Shown here one piece after another: positions 1-36,821 of a stretch of 64,000 nt of DNA (positions are counted from its first letter, which is position 1; each line of letters starts with the position of its first letter). The DNA comes from Trueperaceae bacterium (GTDB lineage: Bacteria; Deinococcota; Deinococci; Deinococcales; Trueperaceae), in the NCBI GenBank assembly GCA_011389865.1, contig JAABTL010000002.1, forward strand, positions 124,001 to 188,000, given 5' to 3'. Under the pieces are notes generated by a model. It did no database searches. It saw only the letters and a list, made by a program, of their open reading frames with translations, and was not told the origin of the DNA. Both the position numbers and the translations under genes were made by a program.

Positions 1-391
1 TCTCGTCGAGGCTGGCGCCGAGCGCCTCGCGCACGTGGAGGGGCCACGACTTGCCGAACAGGGTGACGATGGGCGTGGCGGCGGCCAGCAGCGCCGCGAG
101 GTTGGCGTCGTCCTCCGGCGCGACGCCCTTCCGCCGCGTCGACCCGAAGGCCGTCAGCCGCGCGCGCGCGAGCGGCACGTCACGCATGCGCGCGAAGAAG
201 TCGACGTCCTTCGGGTTCGAGCCGGGCCAGCCGCCCTCGATGAGGTCCATCCCGAAGGCGTCGAGGCGCAACGCGACCGCGACCTTGTCGTCGCTGGTGA
301 AGCTCACACCCTCGCCCTGCGTCCCGTCCCGCAGGGTGGTGTCGTAGATCTCCACCCTTTCGCCCGCGACGCCGCCCTCGGCCGTGGTCAC
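1..391 (-). CDS. cimA: (R)-citramalate synthase CimA-type (partial, N-terminal part)
   Basis: Only the first ~130 codons lie in the window; the gene runs off the left edge. The translation carries the HMGL-like TIM-barrel opening VEIYDTTLRDGTQGEGVSF, then DLIEGGWPGSNPKDVDFF, which is typical of the citramalate synthase branch rather than 2-isopropylmalate synthase (compare FDTTLRDGEQTPGV in the adjacent leuA). The family condenses pyruvate with acetyl-CoA as a threonine-independent entry to isoleucine. The GTG start at 391 overlaps the leuA stop as GTGA, implying translational coupling; a second in-frame GTG at 355 is possible. It is the last visible gene of the ilvBNC-leuA operon, which fits isoleucine synthesis. 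Substrate is inferred from family resemblance only. Confidence 0.82.
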   Translation of the reverse strand, partial: MTTAEGGVAGERVEIYDTTLRDGTQGEGVSFTSDDKVAVALRLDAFGMDLIEGGWPGSNPKDVDFFARMRDVPLARARLTAFGSTRRKGVAPEDDANLAALLAAATPIVTLFGKSWPLHVREALGASLDE

Positions 392-32833: not shown

Positions 32834-32871
32834 CCCCACGCCTTAGCGTGGGGCCCACGCTTCAGCGTGGG
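32834..32871. terminator. tandem hairpins between convergent ABC ATPase and metX
   Basis: CCCCACGC-CTTA-GCGTGGGG (32834-32853) is followed at once by CCCACGC-TTCA-GCGTGGG (32854-32871). The loop of the second contains the metX stop codon, so the end of metX is built into the terminator. Confidence 0.7.
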
Positions 32872-34061
32872 GCCCGCTCCTCGAGGAAGCGCCGGAGGTG
32901 GGCGGCCACCTGGGGGAACTCGATGAGGAAGGCGTCGTGGCCGTGGGGCGAGACGATGCGAGCGTAGCGAGCGTCGGGCAGCCCCTCCACCAGCTGACGC
33001 TGCTCGACCTCGGGGTACAGGACGTCGGTAGGGATACCCATCACCAGCGCCGGCATGCGCATGCCCGCCAGCACCTCGCGCAGCGGCCCGCGCCCGGCGG
33101 CGAGGTCGTGGTCGTCCATCGCTCGCGTCAGGCCCAGGTAGGTGTTGGCGTCGAAGCGCTGGGCCAGCTTGACGCCCTGGTAGCGCAGGTACGAGGCGAT
33201 CTCGAAGCTCGCCTCCAACCCCTCCTCCTCCGCCGGGCGGCGCTCGCGACCGAACTTCGCCTCCAGGGAGTCGAACGAACGGTAGGTGAGCATCGCGATC
33301 GCGCGCGCGAGGCCCAGCCCCGTCTCCGGCTGGCGGTCGGGCCGGTAGGTGCCGCCGTGGAAGTCCGGGTCGGCGGCGATCGCGCGGCGCGCGACCTCGT
33401 TGAGCCCGATCGCCCAGGCGGAGTGACGCGCCCCGATCCCGATCGCGACCAGCGAGCCGACCCGCTCCGGGTGCGTGGCGGCCCACTCGAGCGCCTGCAT
33501 GCCGCCCATGCTGCCGCCGATCACCGCGCGCAGGCGGCCCACACCCAGTCGTTCGAGCAGGCGCCGCTGCACCTCGACCATGTCGCGCACCGTGAACCGC
33601 GGGAAGTCCGGCCCGAAGCGCCGCCCGCTCGCAGGATCGATCGACGTGGGCCCGGTGGTCCCGTAGCAGCCGCCCAGGACGTTGCTGCTGACGACGAAGT
33701 GTTCGCGGACGTCCAGCGCCTTGCCGGGACCGATCAGCGGGTCCCACCACCCGGGGACCTCGCCCTCCCCGTGCCGGCCCGCGGCATGCGCCGAACCCGT
33801 CAGCGCGTGGCACACGAGCACCGCGTTCGCGCCGCGGGCATCGAGCTCCCCGTAGGTCTCGTAGGTCACCGCGACGTGGTCCAAGCGCCCGCCCGACGCC
33901 AGCGGCAGCGGATCGTCGGGACTCGCGACGTCGACGACCTGCGGCCGTACCAGCCCGACGCTGCCGTCCTGCGCGTGCACGCTGCGAGCCAACAGCGCAG
34001 CGTGGTCGCCCCAGGTCTCGTGCACCAGCCGGCGCGGGCCGGGGCCGCCACCCCCGCTCAT
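32862..34061 (-). CDS. metX: homoserine O-acetyltransferase
   Basis: 399 residues, alpha/beta-hydrolase fold. Seen: VLVCHALTGSAHAAG, LGGCYGTTGPTSIDP, nucleophile Ser in AVIGGSMGGMQALEWA, catalytic His in IVSPHGHDAFLIEFP, and a catalytic Asp expected in PTDVLYPEVEQRQL. It activates homoserine for direct sulfhydrylation. The ATG overlaps the metY stop (ATGA); both genes lie behind a SAM-I riboswitch. Confidence 0.93.
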   Translation of the reverse strand: MSGGGGPGPRRLVHETWGDHAALLARSVHAQDGSVGLVRPQVVDVASPDDPLPLASGGRLDHVAVTYETYGELDARGANAVLVCHALTGSAHAAGRHGEGEVPGWWDPLIGPGKALDVREHFVVSSNVLGGCYGTTGPTSIDPASGRRFGPDFPRFTVRDMVEVQRRLLERLGVGRLRAVIGGSMGGMQALEWAATHPERVGSLVAIGIGARHSAWAIGLNEVARRAIAADPDFHGGTYRPDRQPETGLGLARAIAMLTYRSFDSLEAKFGRERRPAEEEGLEASFEIASYLRYQGVKLAQRFDANTYLGLTRAMDDHDLAAGRGPLREVLAGMRMPALVMGIPTDVLYPEVEQRQLVEGLPDARYARIVSPHGHDAFLIEFPQVAAHLRRFLEERAPR

Positions 34062-35356
34062 GCCGTCGCCGCGCGCAGGGCGGCCTCCACATCGACCCGC
34101 AGGTCGTCGAGCGTCTCCAACCCGACCGACAGCCGCACGGTGCCGGGGTGCACGCCGGCGGCGCGGCGGTCCTCCTCCCCCAGCGTCGCGTGCGTGGTGG
34201 TCCACGGGTGGATGGCCACGCTCTTCGCGTCGCCGATGTTGGCGAGCTGCGACACGAGCGTCAGCGCGTCGAGGAAGCGATGCGCCGCCGCCTGATCCGG
34301 CAGGTCGAGCGCCAACACCGCACCGAAGCCGCCGTGGAGGACCCGGCGGGCCGTCTCGTGGCTCGGGTGGCCCGGCAGGCCGGCGTAGCGGACCGCCTCC
34401 ACCCCCGGCCGCCCCTCGAGCCAGCGAGCCAGCGCCAGCGTGCTCTCGCAGCTGCGCGCGCAACGCAGCTCGAGCGTTTCGAGCCCCTGCAGCGCGAGGA
34501 AGGCGGCGAACGGCGAGAGCGTGGCCCCGAGCGTGAAGAGCCCGAGGTCGTGCACGCGCGCGGCCAAGGCCGCGCGGCCGTGGCGCTCGACCCACGTGCG
34601 TCCGCGCGCATCACGGGCGTGGAAGGCCGGGAAGCGGCTGGCATCGAACACGAAGTCGCCGCCGTCGACGACGACGCCCCCGACGAAGGCGCCATGCCCC
34701 CCGATCCACTTGGTGGCGGAGTGCACCACGACGTCGGCGCCGTGTTCGAGGGGCCTGCAGAGGTACCCGCCGCAGCCCCAGGTGTTGTCGACGACCAGCG
34801 GGGCGCCGGCGGCGTGGGCGACGGCCGCCAGGGTGGGCAGGTCGGGCACCGTGCCGCTGGGGTTGGCGATCGTCTCGACCCATACGGCGACGACGTCGTC
34901 CCCTAGGGCGGCCGCGACCGCCTCAGCCGTCGGGGGCACGGTCGTCGCGCGGACACCCCACGGCTCCAGCCACTTGCGGAACAGCGAGAAGGTGCCGCCG
35001 AACGCCTCCTGCGACAGCACCACGCGGGCACCCGGGCGCGCCAGTGCCAGCAGGGTGGCAGCCGACGCCGCCTGACCCGAGGCGAACGCGACGGCGCCGG
35101 CGCCACCCTCGAGGTCGCGCATCCGCTCGGCGAACGCGTCGACGGTGGGGTTGTGCATGCGCGCGTACTGGTTGCCGGGTGCCTGACCGGCGAAGAGCGC
35201 GGCCGCGTGAGCGGCGCTCTCGAACACGTAGCTCGAGGTCGCGTGGATCGGCTGGGCCCGGCTACCGGCCACCCGGTCCGGCGGGGTGCCGGCGTGCACC
35301 GCGCGGGTGGCGAAACCCAACGTGGGCTCGGGATCGGGGGACGTGGAATCCGGCAT
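34058..35356 (-). CDS. metY: O-acetylhomoserine aminocarboxypropyltransferase (sulfhydrylase)
   Basis: 432 residues, a Cys/Met-metabolism PLP enzyme. Seen: TRAVHAGTPPDRVAGSRAQP, YARMHNPTVDAFAERMRDLE, VVDNTWGCGGYLCRPLEHGA, and the PLP lysine in VVVHSATKWIGGHGAFVGG; the QLANIGDAKSVAIHPWTTTH stretch is typical of MetY. It makes homocysteine from O-acetylhomoserine and sulfide. GGAG of its ribosome site lies immediately after the riboswitch aptamer. Confidence 0.94.
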   Translation of the reverse strand: MPDSTSPDPEPTLGFATRAVHAGTPPDRVAGSRAQPIHATSSYVFESAAHAAALFAGQAPGNQYARMHNPTVDAFAERMRDLEGGAGAVAFASGQAASAATLLALARPGARVVLSQEAFGGTFSLFRKWLEPWGVRATTVPPTAEAVAAALGDDVVAVWVETIANPSGTVPDLPTLAAVAHAAGAPLVVDNTWGCGGYLCRPLEHGADVVVHSATKWIGGHGAFVGGVVVDGGDFVFDASRFPAFHARDARGRTWVERHGRAALAARVHDLGLFTLGATLSPFAAFLALQGLETLELRCARSCESTLALARWLEGRPGVEAVRYAGLPGHPSHETARRVLHGGFGAVLALDLPDQAAAHRFLDALTLVSQLANIGDAKSVAIHPWTTTHATLGEEDRRAAGVHPGTVRLSVGLETLDDLRVDVEAALRAATA

Positions 35357-35379
35357 CTCTTCTCCGATCTTCCCGGCGC

Positions 35380-35490
35380 GCCGCGATCGTCGCCCGCGCG
35401 GCCGGCTGGAGTGAGCACCCGCCTGGATGGAGGCTGGTTGCTGCGGCGTCGCGGGGCCAGGTCCCTAGACCGCTCTCGATCGATGCCCGC
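35380..35490 (-). ncRNA. SAM-I (S-box) riboswitch controlling metY-metX
   Basis: In the transcript sense GATCGAGAGCGG, GGGACCTGGCCC, GACGCCGCAGCAACC and GGTGCTCACTCCAGC follow the conserved S-box core order: P1/P2 entry with the GA-rich kink-turn, J3/4, the GCAACC box, then GGTGC...TCC-AGC. CGATCG near each end can close P1. It ends about 25 nt before the metY ATG next to GATCGGAGAAGAG, so control of the ribosome site is likely; no T-run terminator is seen. Known to turn off expression when SAM is plentiful. Confidence 0.85.
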
Positions 35491-35495
35491 CGCGT

Positions 35496-35580
35496 AGCGG
35501 CGGCGGACGCGCAGCGGCGGCGGACGCGCAGCGGCGGCGGACGCGTAGCGGCGGCTGACGCGCAGCCGCGGCGGACGCGC
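35496..35580. repeat. five 17-bp tandem repeats in the metY-DegT divergent region
   Basis: Units at 35496, 35513, 35530, 35547 and 35564, consensus AGCGGCGGCGGACGCGC. Units 1-2 are identical; unit 3 has a final T; units 4 and 5 each differ by one base. The array ends 6 bp before the riboswitch core and 25 bp before the DegT -10 box. Confidence 0.92.
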
Positions 35581-35604
35581 GCCATCACACCACATCGACG
35601 CTGG

Positions 35605-35610
35605 TAGCAT
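35605..35610 (+). promoter_or_regulatory. -10 box of a leaderless DegT-aminotransferase mRNA
   Basis: TAGCAT, then 5 nt, then the GTG start. The same TAGCAT-N5-start arrangement precedes the ABC ATPase at 31279. Confidence 0.55.
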
Positions 35611-35615
35611 GCGAC

Positions 35616-36821
35616 GTGTCCCACGCCGATCCCCGGACCGTCCCGCTCCTCGACCTGGCCGCCGAGCTCGACCCGCTGCGGCCCGAACTCGACGCCGCTT
35701 GGCAGCGCGCGCTCGCGTCGGGCCAGTTCGTGCTCGGACCGGAGGTGGCGGCATTCGAGCGGGAGACCGCGGACTACCTGGGGGTGCGCCACGCCATCGG
35801 CCTCAACTCCGGCACCGACGCCCTGACGATCGGGTTGCGCGCCCTGGGCGTCCGGCCCGGCAACGAGGTCATCACCACCCCCTTCTCGTTCTTCGCGACC
35901 AGCGAGACGATCCTGCTGCTCGGCGCCGTGCCGGTGTTCGTCGACCTGACGCCCGACGGCTTCATGCTCGACCCGGAAGCGGTCGCCGCGGCCGTGACCG
36001 AGCGCACGCGAGCGATCCTGCCGGTGCACCTCTACGGCGAACTCGCGCCGATGGACGAGCTGAACCGGATCGCTCTGCGCCACGACCTGCGCGTCCTCGA
36101 GGACGCGGCACAGGCCTTCGGTGCGCGGGCACCCGCCTCCGGTGCGCGAGCCCCCGCCTCCGGCGCGCGAGCCCCCGCCGGTGGAGCCGTGGTGGCCGCC
36201 CCACCGAGGGGCCGCGCGGCCGGTGCGCTCGGCCACGCCGGCGCCTTCTCCTTCTACCCGACCAAGAACCTCGGCGCCCTCGGCGACGGCGGCCTACTGA
36301 CCACGGACGACGACGCCGTCGCCGCCCACGCACGACGGCTGCGCAACCACGGCAGCGAGCGCCGCTACCAGCACCTCGAACCCGGGTACAACTCGCGGCT
36401 CGACGCCCTCCAGGCCGCCTGGTTGCGGGTCAAGCTGCCGCACCTCGACGCCTGGACACGGGCCCGCCGTCGGGTCGCGGCGCGCTACGACACCCTGTTG
36501 TCGGGCATGGACGGGGTCATCACGCCGCCAGCCGCCCCGGGACACGTCTACCACCAGTACACCGTCCGGCTGCCGGACGGGCGACGCGACGCGGTGGCCG
36601 AGGGCCTGCGCACGCGTGGGGTCGCGTCGATGGTGTACTACCCGGAGACGCTCGACCGGTACGGCGGCCGACCCCACGGCGACCTCCCCCACGCCCGCCG
36701 CGCCGCCGCCGAGGTCCTGTCGCTGCCGATCTACCCGACGCTCGACGAGGAAGCCCAGGCGCACGTCGCCGCCGCCCTTCGCTCAGCCATCGCCGAGGCC
36801 GGCCGGCCGCACGGCGGCTGA
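35616..36821 (+). CDS. DegT/DnrJ/EryC1 family PLP aminotransferase
   Basis: 401 residues. Seen: LGPEVAAFERETADYLG, IGLNSGTDALTIGLRALG, VITTPFSFFATSETILLLGA, ILPVHLYGELAPMDEL, VLEDAAQAFGA, catalytic Lys in GAFSFYPTKNLGALGDGGLL, and GYNSRLDALQAAWLRVKLPH. It would aminate a nucleotide-linked ketosugar for surface glycans (by family). An Ala/Gly insertion at residues ~169-189 is made of three 7-residue GARAPAS-type repeats. Leaderless start inferred. Confidence 0.9.
   Translation: MSHADPRTVPLLDLAAELDPLRPELDAAWQRALASGQFVLGPEVAAFERETADYLGVRHAIGLNSGTDALTIGLRALGVRPGNEVITTPFSFFATSETILLLGAVPVFVDLTPDGFMLDPEAVAAAVTERTRAILPVHLYGELAPMDELNRIALRHDLRVLEDAAQAFGARAPASGARAPASGARAPAGGAVVAAPPRGRAAGALGHAGAFSFYPTKNLGALGDGGLLTTDDDAVAAHARRLRNHGSERRYQHLEPGYNSRLDALQAAWLRVKLPHLDAWTRARRRVAARYDTLLSGMDGVITPPAAPGHVYHQYTVRLPDGRRDAVAEGLRTRGVASMVYYPETLDRYGGRPHGDLPHARRAAAEVLSLPIYPTLDEEAQAHVAAALRSAIAEAGRPHGG
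36120..36182 (+). repeat. in-frame 21-bp tandem repeat (3 copies) in the DegT gene
   Basis: Units at 36120, 36141 and 36162 encode GARAPAS, GARAPAS and GARAPAG. They lie between the PLP-ring Asp segment and the catalytic lysine, in a surface loop by family topology. Confidence 0.88.

Follow-up and report, generated by a model that had tools for sequence, protein, structure and literature searches.

Platforms of SAM-I (S-box) riboswitches in which the ribosome-binding site lies in the 3' side of P1 have been described (Barrick and Breaker 2007, PMC2258182), and the metY-metX (metYX) leader analysed here comes closest to them. The metYX leader resembles them in a match to RF00162 above the gathering score, in the met genes downstream, in a ribosome-binding site within P1 and in that no terminator was found, and it differs from them in the 17-bp tandem array that separates the aptamer from the predicted promoter and in an A-A mismatch at the second P1 pair. 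A further comparison is offered by the SAM-I riboswitch of the Xanthomonas campestris met operon, where the met genes are controlled mainly by translation (PMC7270179); the metYX riboswitch appears alike in this respect, but the Xanthomonas one employs a separate anti-Shine-Dalgarno hairpin together with uncharged tRNA-fMet, whereas the metYX switch has just 5 nt between the Shine-Dalgarno (SD) sequence and the ATG. Literature searches, covering mostly open-access papers, on Truepera with riboswitches and on S-box with tandem repeats and leader length returned nothing on point.

The window, i.e. the whole stretch of 64,000 nucleotides that was analysed, belongs to a Trueperaceae genome assembly of 3.05 Mb in 67 contigs (G000). 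On its reverse strand, a metY-like gene of the O-acetylhomoserine sulfhydrylase family (34058-35356), matched by TIGR01326 and related families below their curated cut-offs, is followed by metX (homoserine O-acetyltransferase, 32862-34061), which overlaps the metY stop and scores above its cut-off (NF001209, 455.1 bits against 331). The divergent gene on the forward strand (35616-36821) is labelled a DegT-type sugar aminotransferase from its best NCBIfam matches, every one of them below cut-off; it contains a 21-bp tandem repeat in frame (36107-36179), which encodes GARAPAS-type repeats.

The SAM-I aptamer occupies 35362-35485 on the reverse strand and matches RF00162 over its full length (model positions 1-108 of 108) with 55.1 bits, the gathering score being 44.4. 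The first-pass annotation had placed riboswitch and array at 35380-35580, an interval that takes in the array and most of the aptamer and stops short of the aptamer end at 35362. Membership in SAM-I is given by this full-length match together with the linkage to methionine genes, metY-like and metX, lying downstream, and the aptamer would sense SAM. The only other Rfam family at the locus is M23 sRNA, on the opposite strand, with 19.6 bits, below its gathering score of 41.2. In the cmscan alignment the 3' strand of P1 consists of the last eight aptamer bases, GATCGGAG (35362-35369, reverse strand); the final four of these are the SD of metY, GGAG (35365-35362), 5 nt from the ATG. The same GATCGGAG, 5-nt spacer and ATG are found in the window genome and in its two sisters, Trueperaceae bacterium S08.Bin137 (G001) and Trueperaceae bacterium KA26 (G002), which places the ribosome-binding site in P1 in all three; a loose pattern for such a layout matches 12 of 38 Trueperaceae loci, these three included, two of the matches (L049, L076) being perhaps spurious. 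No terminator-like site was found at the locus, as in a direct-occlusion platform, which has no separate terminator. Judged from the sequence, the metYX switch appears to be of this known direct-occlusion type: with SAM bound, P1 would form and the GGAG in its 3' strand would be buried, so that metY would not be translated, and without SAM P1 would open and the ribosome could bind.

Five full copies of a 17-bp unit and a partial one make up the array (35491-35580, reverse strand), which reads on the metY strand as GCGCGTCCGCCGCGGCT, GCGCGTCAGCCGCCGCT, ACGCGTCCGCCGCCGCT and GCGCGTCCGCCGCCGCT twice, the partial copy coming last. TRF reports a period of 17, 5.3 copies and 91% matches, and its score of 152 is the highest in the window; in 30 dinucleotide-preserving shuffles of the window the top score ranged from 50 to 87. 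That the array adjoins the aptamer, as first proposed, is correct, the gap being five bases (35486-35490). In a 464-kb sample of the same genome its score ranks fifth among 308 TRF rows; the metYX array is therefore strong, yet one of several in this GC-rich genome. Because the copies differ in bases, an assembly loop is an unlikely origin of the array. Single near-copies of the unit, 143 forward and 147 reverse where the reversed pattern gives 80 and 84, are scattered in the genome and partly GC-driven, whereas the tandem dimer is, in the five genomes of the genus that were compared, unique to the metYX site; the idea of a dispersed genome element was accordingly rejected.

A consensus scan for promoters and terminators gave no match on either strand, which led to a search for the promoter by comparing species. 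In each of the three species the 240 nt that precede the aptamer contain a single -10-like hexamer (at least four of six matches to TATAAT, or the form TANNNT): TGTGAT, at 35584-35589 on the reverse strand of the window, with an extended TG at 35592-35591. In all three it lies beyond the array, its start being 104, 70 and 36 nt away from the aptamer. The block that holds it, bounded by the divergent gene on one side and the array on the other, is identical at 32-33 of 35 positions, compared with 84-89% for longer aligned stretches. The first-pass view that the repeats lie where the metYX promoter should be does not agree with this arrangement. A loose extended -10 pattern, TGnTnnnnT, also occurs upstream of the aptamer at 26 of 40 SAM-I loci of the Trueperaceae, each with 60 nt or more of sequence before the aptamer. 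Moreover, six syntenic metYX loci without a detectable riboswitch (L122, L124, L125, L126, L130, L131) carry, by eye, the block TGTGCTTSACTGG, where S is C or G, whose counterpart in the window is TGTGGTGTGATGG. No -35 of metYX is recognisable, in that nothing matches TTGNNN-15..19-TNNNNT; since TGTGAT also lacks the A at position 2 of TANNNT, the promoter looks weak by sequence criteria. Transcription is predicted to start near 35577, which would put nearly the whole array inside the transcribed leader. In fact, with the sole -10-like hexamer on the far side of the array, within a conserved block and in three species, the array is most likely transcribed 5' leader and not promoter or operator.

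On the other strand, the divergent gene has a predicted -10, TAGCAT (35605-35610), five bases before its GTG, in accordance with the TANNNT rule for the phylum; a GCATGCTA-like block is seen by eye in relatives, and the mRNA is predicted to be leaderless. This corresponds to the layout of Deinococcus-Thermus, in which a TANNNT -10 beside the ORF goes with leaderless expression (PMC12340547); metYX is the opposite, having a long structured leader.

The site is present in three genomes, one per species, two of which are named as MAGs. The comparison of repeat number that had been suggested between strains was carried out across these species, and the syntenic site holds five copies in the window, three in S08.Bin137 (L064/L120) and one in KA26 (L065/L121); a three-way MAFFT alignment placed the repeats wrongly and was left out of these counts. 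As a consequence the distance from the end of the -10 to the aptamer is 98, 64 and 30 nt, respectively, that is, it changes in 34-nt steps. The earlier suggestion that expansion tunes promoter spacing is correct as to the variable copy number, but what changes is the length of the leader between the -10 and the aptamer, not the spacing of the promoter itself. Variable tandem repeats are known in bacterial promoters and leaders, and the metYX array, with a copy number that differs among related genomes at one site, resembles them in its short unit as well; it differs in that the variation seen here is one between species, and not phase variation or change within a strain.

At several syntenic loci outside these three species the metYX riboswitch was not detected. 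One further genome (G004) keeps the gene order with no detectable riboswitch, and in another (G003) no close metY copy was found, the best match reaching 48% identity. An Rfam scan with E up to 1 over nine syntenic or related loci (L127, L129 and L132 were left out) found SAM in L128, whose 5' end is cut by the contig, and no SAM riboswitch at L103, L122, L123, L124, L125, L126, L130 and L131. By eye, a remnant of the 5' half of the aptamer can be seen at L123, and GATCGGAG is retained before the ATG at L103.

The account that we consider probable is a nearly neutral expansion of the leader by slippage, with the promoter upstream of the array, beside a riboswitch of the known direct-occlusion type. 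RNA polymerase, starting from the promoter with its -10 at 35589-35584, would copy some 90 nt of GC-rich leader, made up almost wholly of the 17-bp repeat, ahead of the aptamer. The repeats would stem from a 17-bp segment of the leader, present once in KA26, that was duplicated by a slippage-type process. They are probably a dispensable lengthening of the RNA leader rather than a control site: since the last copy, with its flank, can still form a hairpin running up to P1, changes in leader length probably do not reach the aptamer, and the number of copies may drift almost neutrally. Several observations go against this account: the weak promoter sequence, the absence of P1 from the ligand-free folds, the modelled folding cost that the repeats add, a hairpin that is not significant at this locus by itself, and the small number of genomes with the site. 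In addition, the other SAM-I riboswitch of the genome also stands beside a five-copy 17-bp array, which would not be expected under pure neutrality, and tuning by the repeats is possible.

If the repeats did tune the switch, their number could act as a rheostat of its set point, through the distance or time between transcription start and aptamer or through competition between the folds of leader and aptamer, and expansion and contraction would supply heritable variation. The different copy number in each of the three species and the arrays at both SAM-I loci of the window genome are in line with this, and so is a modelled cost of folding the aptamer that the repeats raise slightly, by about 2.8 kcal/mol in the window, 3.5 in S08.Bin137 and 0.1 in KA26, in energies that take no account of SAM, the K-turn or the pseudoknot. 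The cost is, however, no lower for leaders shuffled at equal composition (13.6 kcal/mol, sd 3.2, compared with 9.7 in the window), and a hairpin abutting the aptamer would insulate it; we regard the rheostat as unlikely, if the most serious of the competitors. P1 is missing from the ligand-free minimum-energy folds of all three leaders, with or without repeats. Interference of the repeats with aptamer folding, also considered, was rejected, the cost being small and no greater than in shuffled leaders.

Selection could instead act on a stable GC-rich 5' end, with the array supplying or protecting the hairpin at P1, or extending the half-life of the mRNA, while SAM sensing is unchanged. The predicted hairpin, TCCGCCGC(CGCTAC)GCGGCGGG (35486-35507, reverse strand), is formed by the last repeat copy, which supplies its 5' arm, and the flank, and ends at the base before the aptamer; it has 8 pairs, one of them G-U, and on its own it is not significant at the window locus (composition-matched P 0.09, and 0.33 in KA26). 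Across the family, a perfect stem of at least 5 pairs ends directly before the aptamer at 18 of 40 Trueperaceae SAM-I loci, against 3.6 expected (sd 2.0; 200 mononucleotide shuffles, highest 11), in a set of related loci whose counts are not independent. The excess decays within a few bases of the aptamer edge, the offsets from 1 to 5 giving 15, 7, 10, 7 and 4 of 40. A coarser per-locus test at P <=0.05 gives 7 of 40 at the edge, also 7 of 40 at 40 nt further upstream, and 0, 2, 1, 0 and 3 of 40 at 20, 60, 80, 120 and 160 nt. These counts suggest that Trueperaceae SAM-I leaders tend to set a hairpin directly against P1, and this enrichment speaks for a selected 5' end as it does for the account that we favour; nevertheless, one copy suffices in KA26, and no such repeat is present at L123 and other syntenic loci, which leaves such selection improbable.

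The first-pass annotation had also proposed an iterated binding site. A regulatory protein that binds the repeats between the two divergent promoters would fit tandem copies lying close to two predicted promoters, but relatives do not keep several copies: KA26 has a single one, and of the five genomes of the genus two have the tandem dimer, which matches at their metYX sites alone. The near-copies of the unit, moreover, are scattered and partly GC-driven, and a period of 17 bp, about 1.6 helical turns per copy, is not a whole number of turns, so that we find an operator very hard to sustain. A metYX promoter inside the array is the least credible reading of all, for although the array stands immediately 5' of the aptamer, it contains no -10-like hexamer and its 30-nt segments have 7-20% A+T.

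The second SAM-I riboswitch of the genome (G000:C21:1750-1875) has directly upstream of it another 17-bp unit repeated 5.4 times (L187, 1931-2021), which extends from just past the stop codon of the preceding gene to the promoter and whose last copy carries, by eye, a predicted -35, TTGCGC, 17 bp from TTCACT. The contig stretch C21 was put into the 464-kb sample deliberately, as the holder of this riboswitch, and the sample was thus not blind to the L187 array. A third 17-bp array (L179, 18642-18724; G000:C11:38642-38724) lies at an ordinary gene junction, between a gene read as penicillin-binding-protein-like and the next gene, and repeats the GTGAGC start region. This genome thus has several 17-bp expansions, in two cases next to a SAM-I riboswitch, which is in favour of the slippage account, and the argument that arrays at both SAM-I loci make these loci special is weakened by the third. 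A bolder proposal is that Trueperaceae of this genus tune SAM-I through two independently evolving, slippage-prone 17-bp rheostats on one regulon, leader length at metYX and promoter strength at the second metY locus, where the array ends on the -35; we think it a long shot.

Between the SAM-I aptamer and metY, most other Trueperaceae loci have a feature that is absent from the metYX of the window. Of 41 Trueperaceae SAM-I loci, 28 have the hexamer CGAATG in the 420 nt on the 3' side of the aptamer (shuffles, mean 3, maximum 8) and one has it in the 420 nt upstream. The 28 are L002 (G000:C21:1599-1615) and 27 more, e.g. L048, L050, L058, L071 and L074; the loci are related, and their counts are not independent. 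An SD-started open frame reaches CGAATG with CGA ATG in frame in 26 of 28 cases, and either other frame does so in none of the 28. Its arginine codon is CGA in 26 of 26, CGA being 32 of 351 arginine codons in six genes of the window. On the 3' side of CGAATG there follows N6-GCGG, often with a strong hairpin (L082 left out); the motif CGAATGYN5SCGGC occurs once in the window genome, at the L002 site. No Rfam family was found at this region in the 9 loci scanned, and literature searches on SAM riboswitches with leader peptides or upstream ORFs, again mostly in open-access papers, found nothing on such an ORF. The ORF may encode a Met-codon leader peptide that SAM-I controls. In order-level relatives (L094, L096, L097, L098), the long extension of the aptamer itself contains, apparently in P3, the helix being assigned by eye, a small ORF that encodes an Arg-Met motif (RMF or RML).

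The array may matter less than the upstream ORF that, with its in-frame CGA-AUG, is conserved behind most of the other SAM-I riboswitches of the Trueperaceae. As for metYX itself, a new kind of system is not needed, an ordinary riboswitch whose leader has been extended by tandem repeats being enough; its one, three and five copies form a natural series of leader lengths before a nearly identical riboswitch, in which it can be tested whether the RNA preceding an aptamer affects switching.
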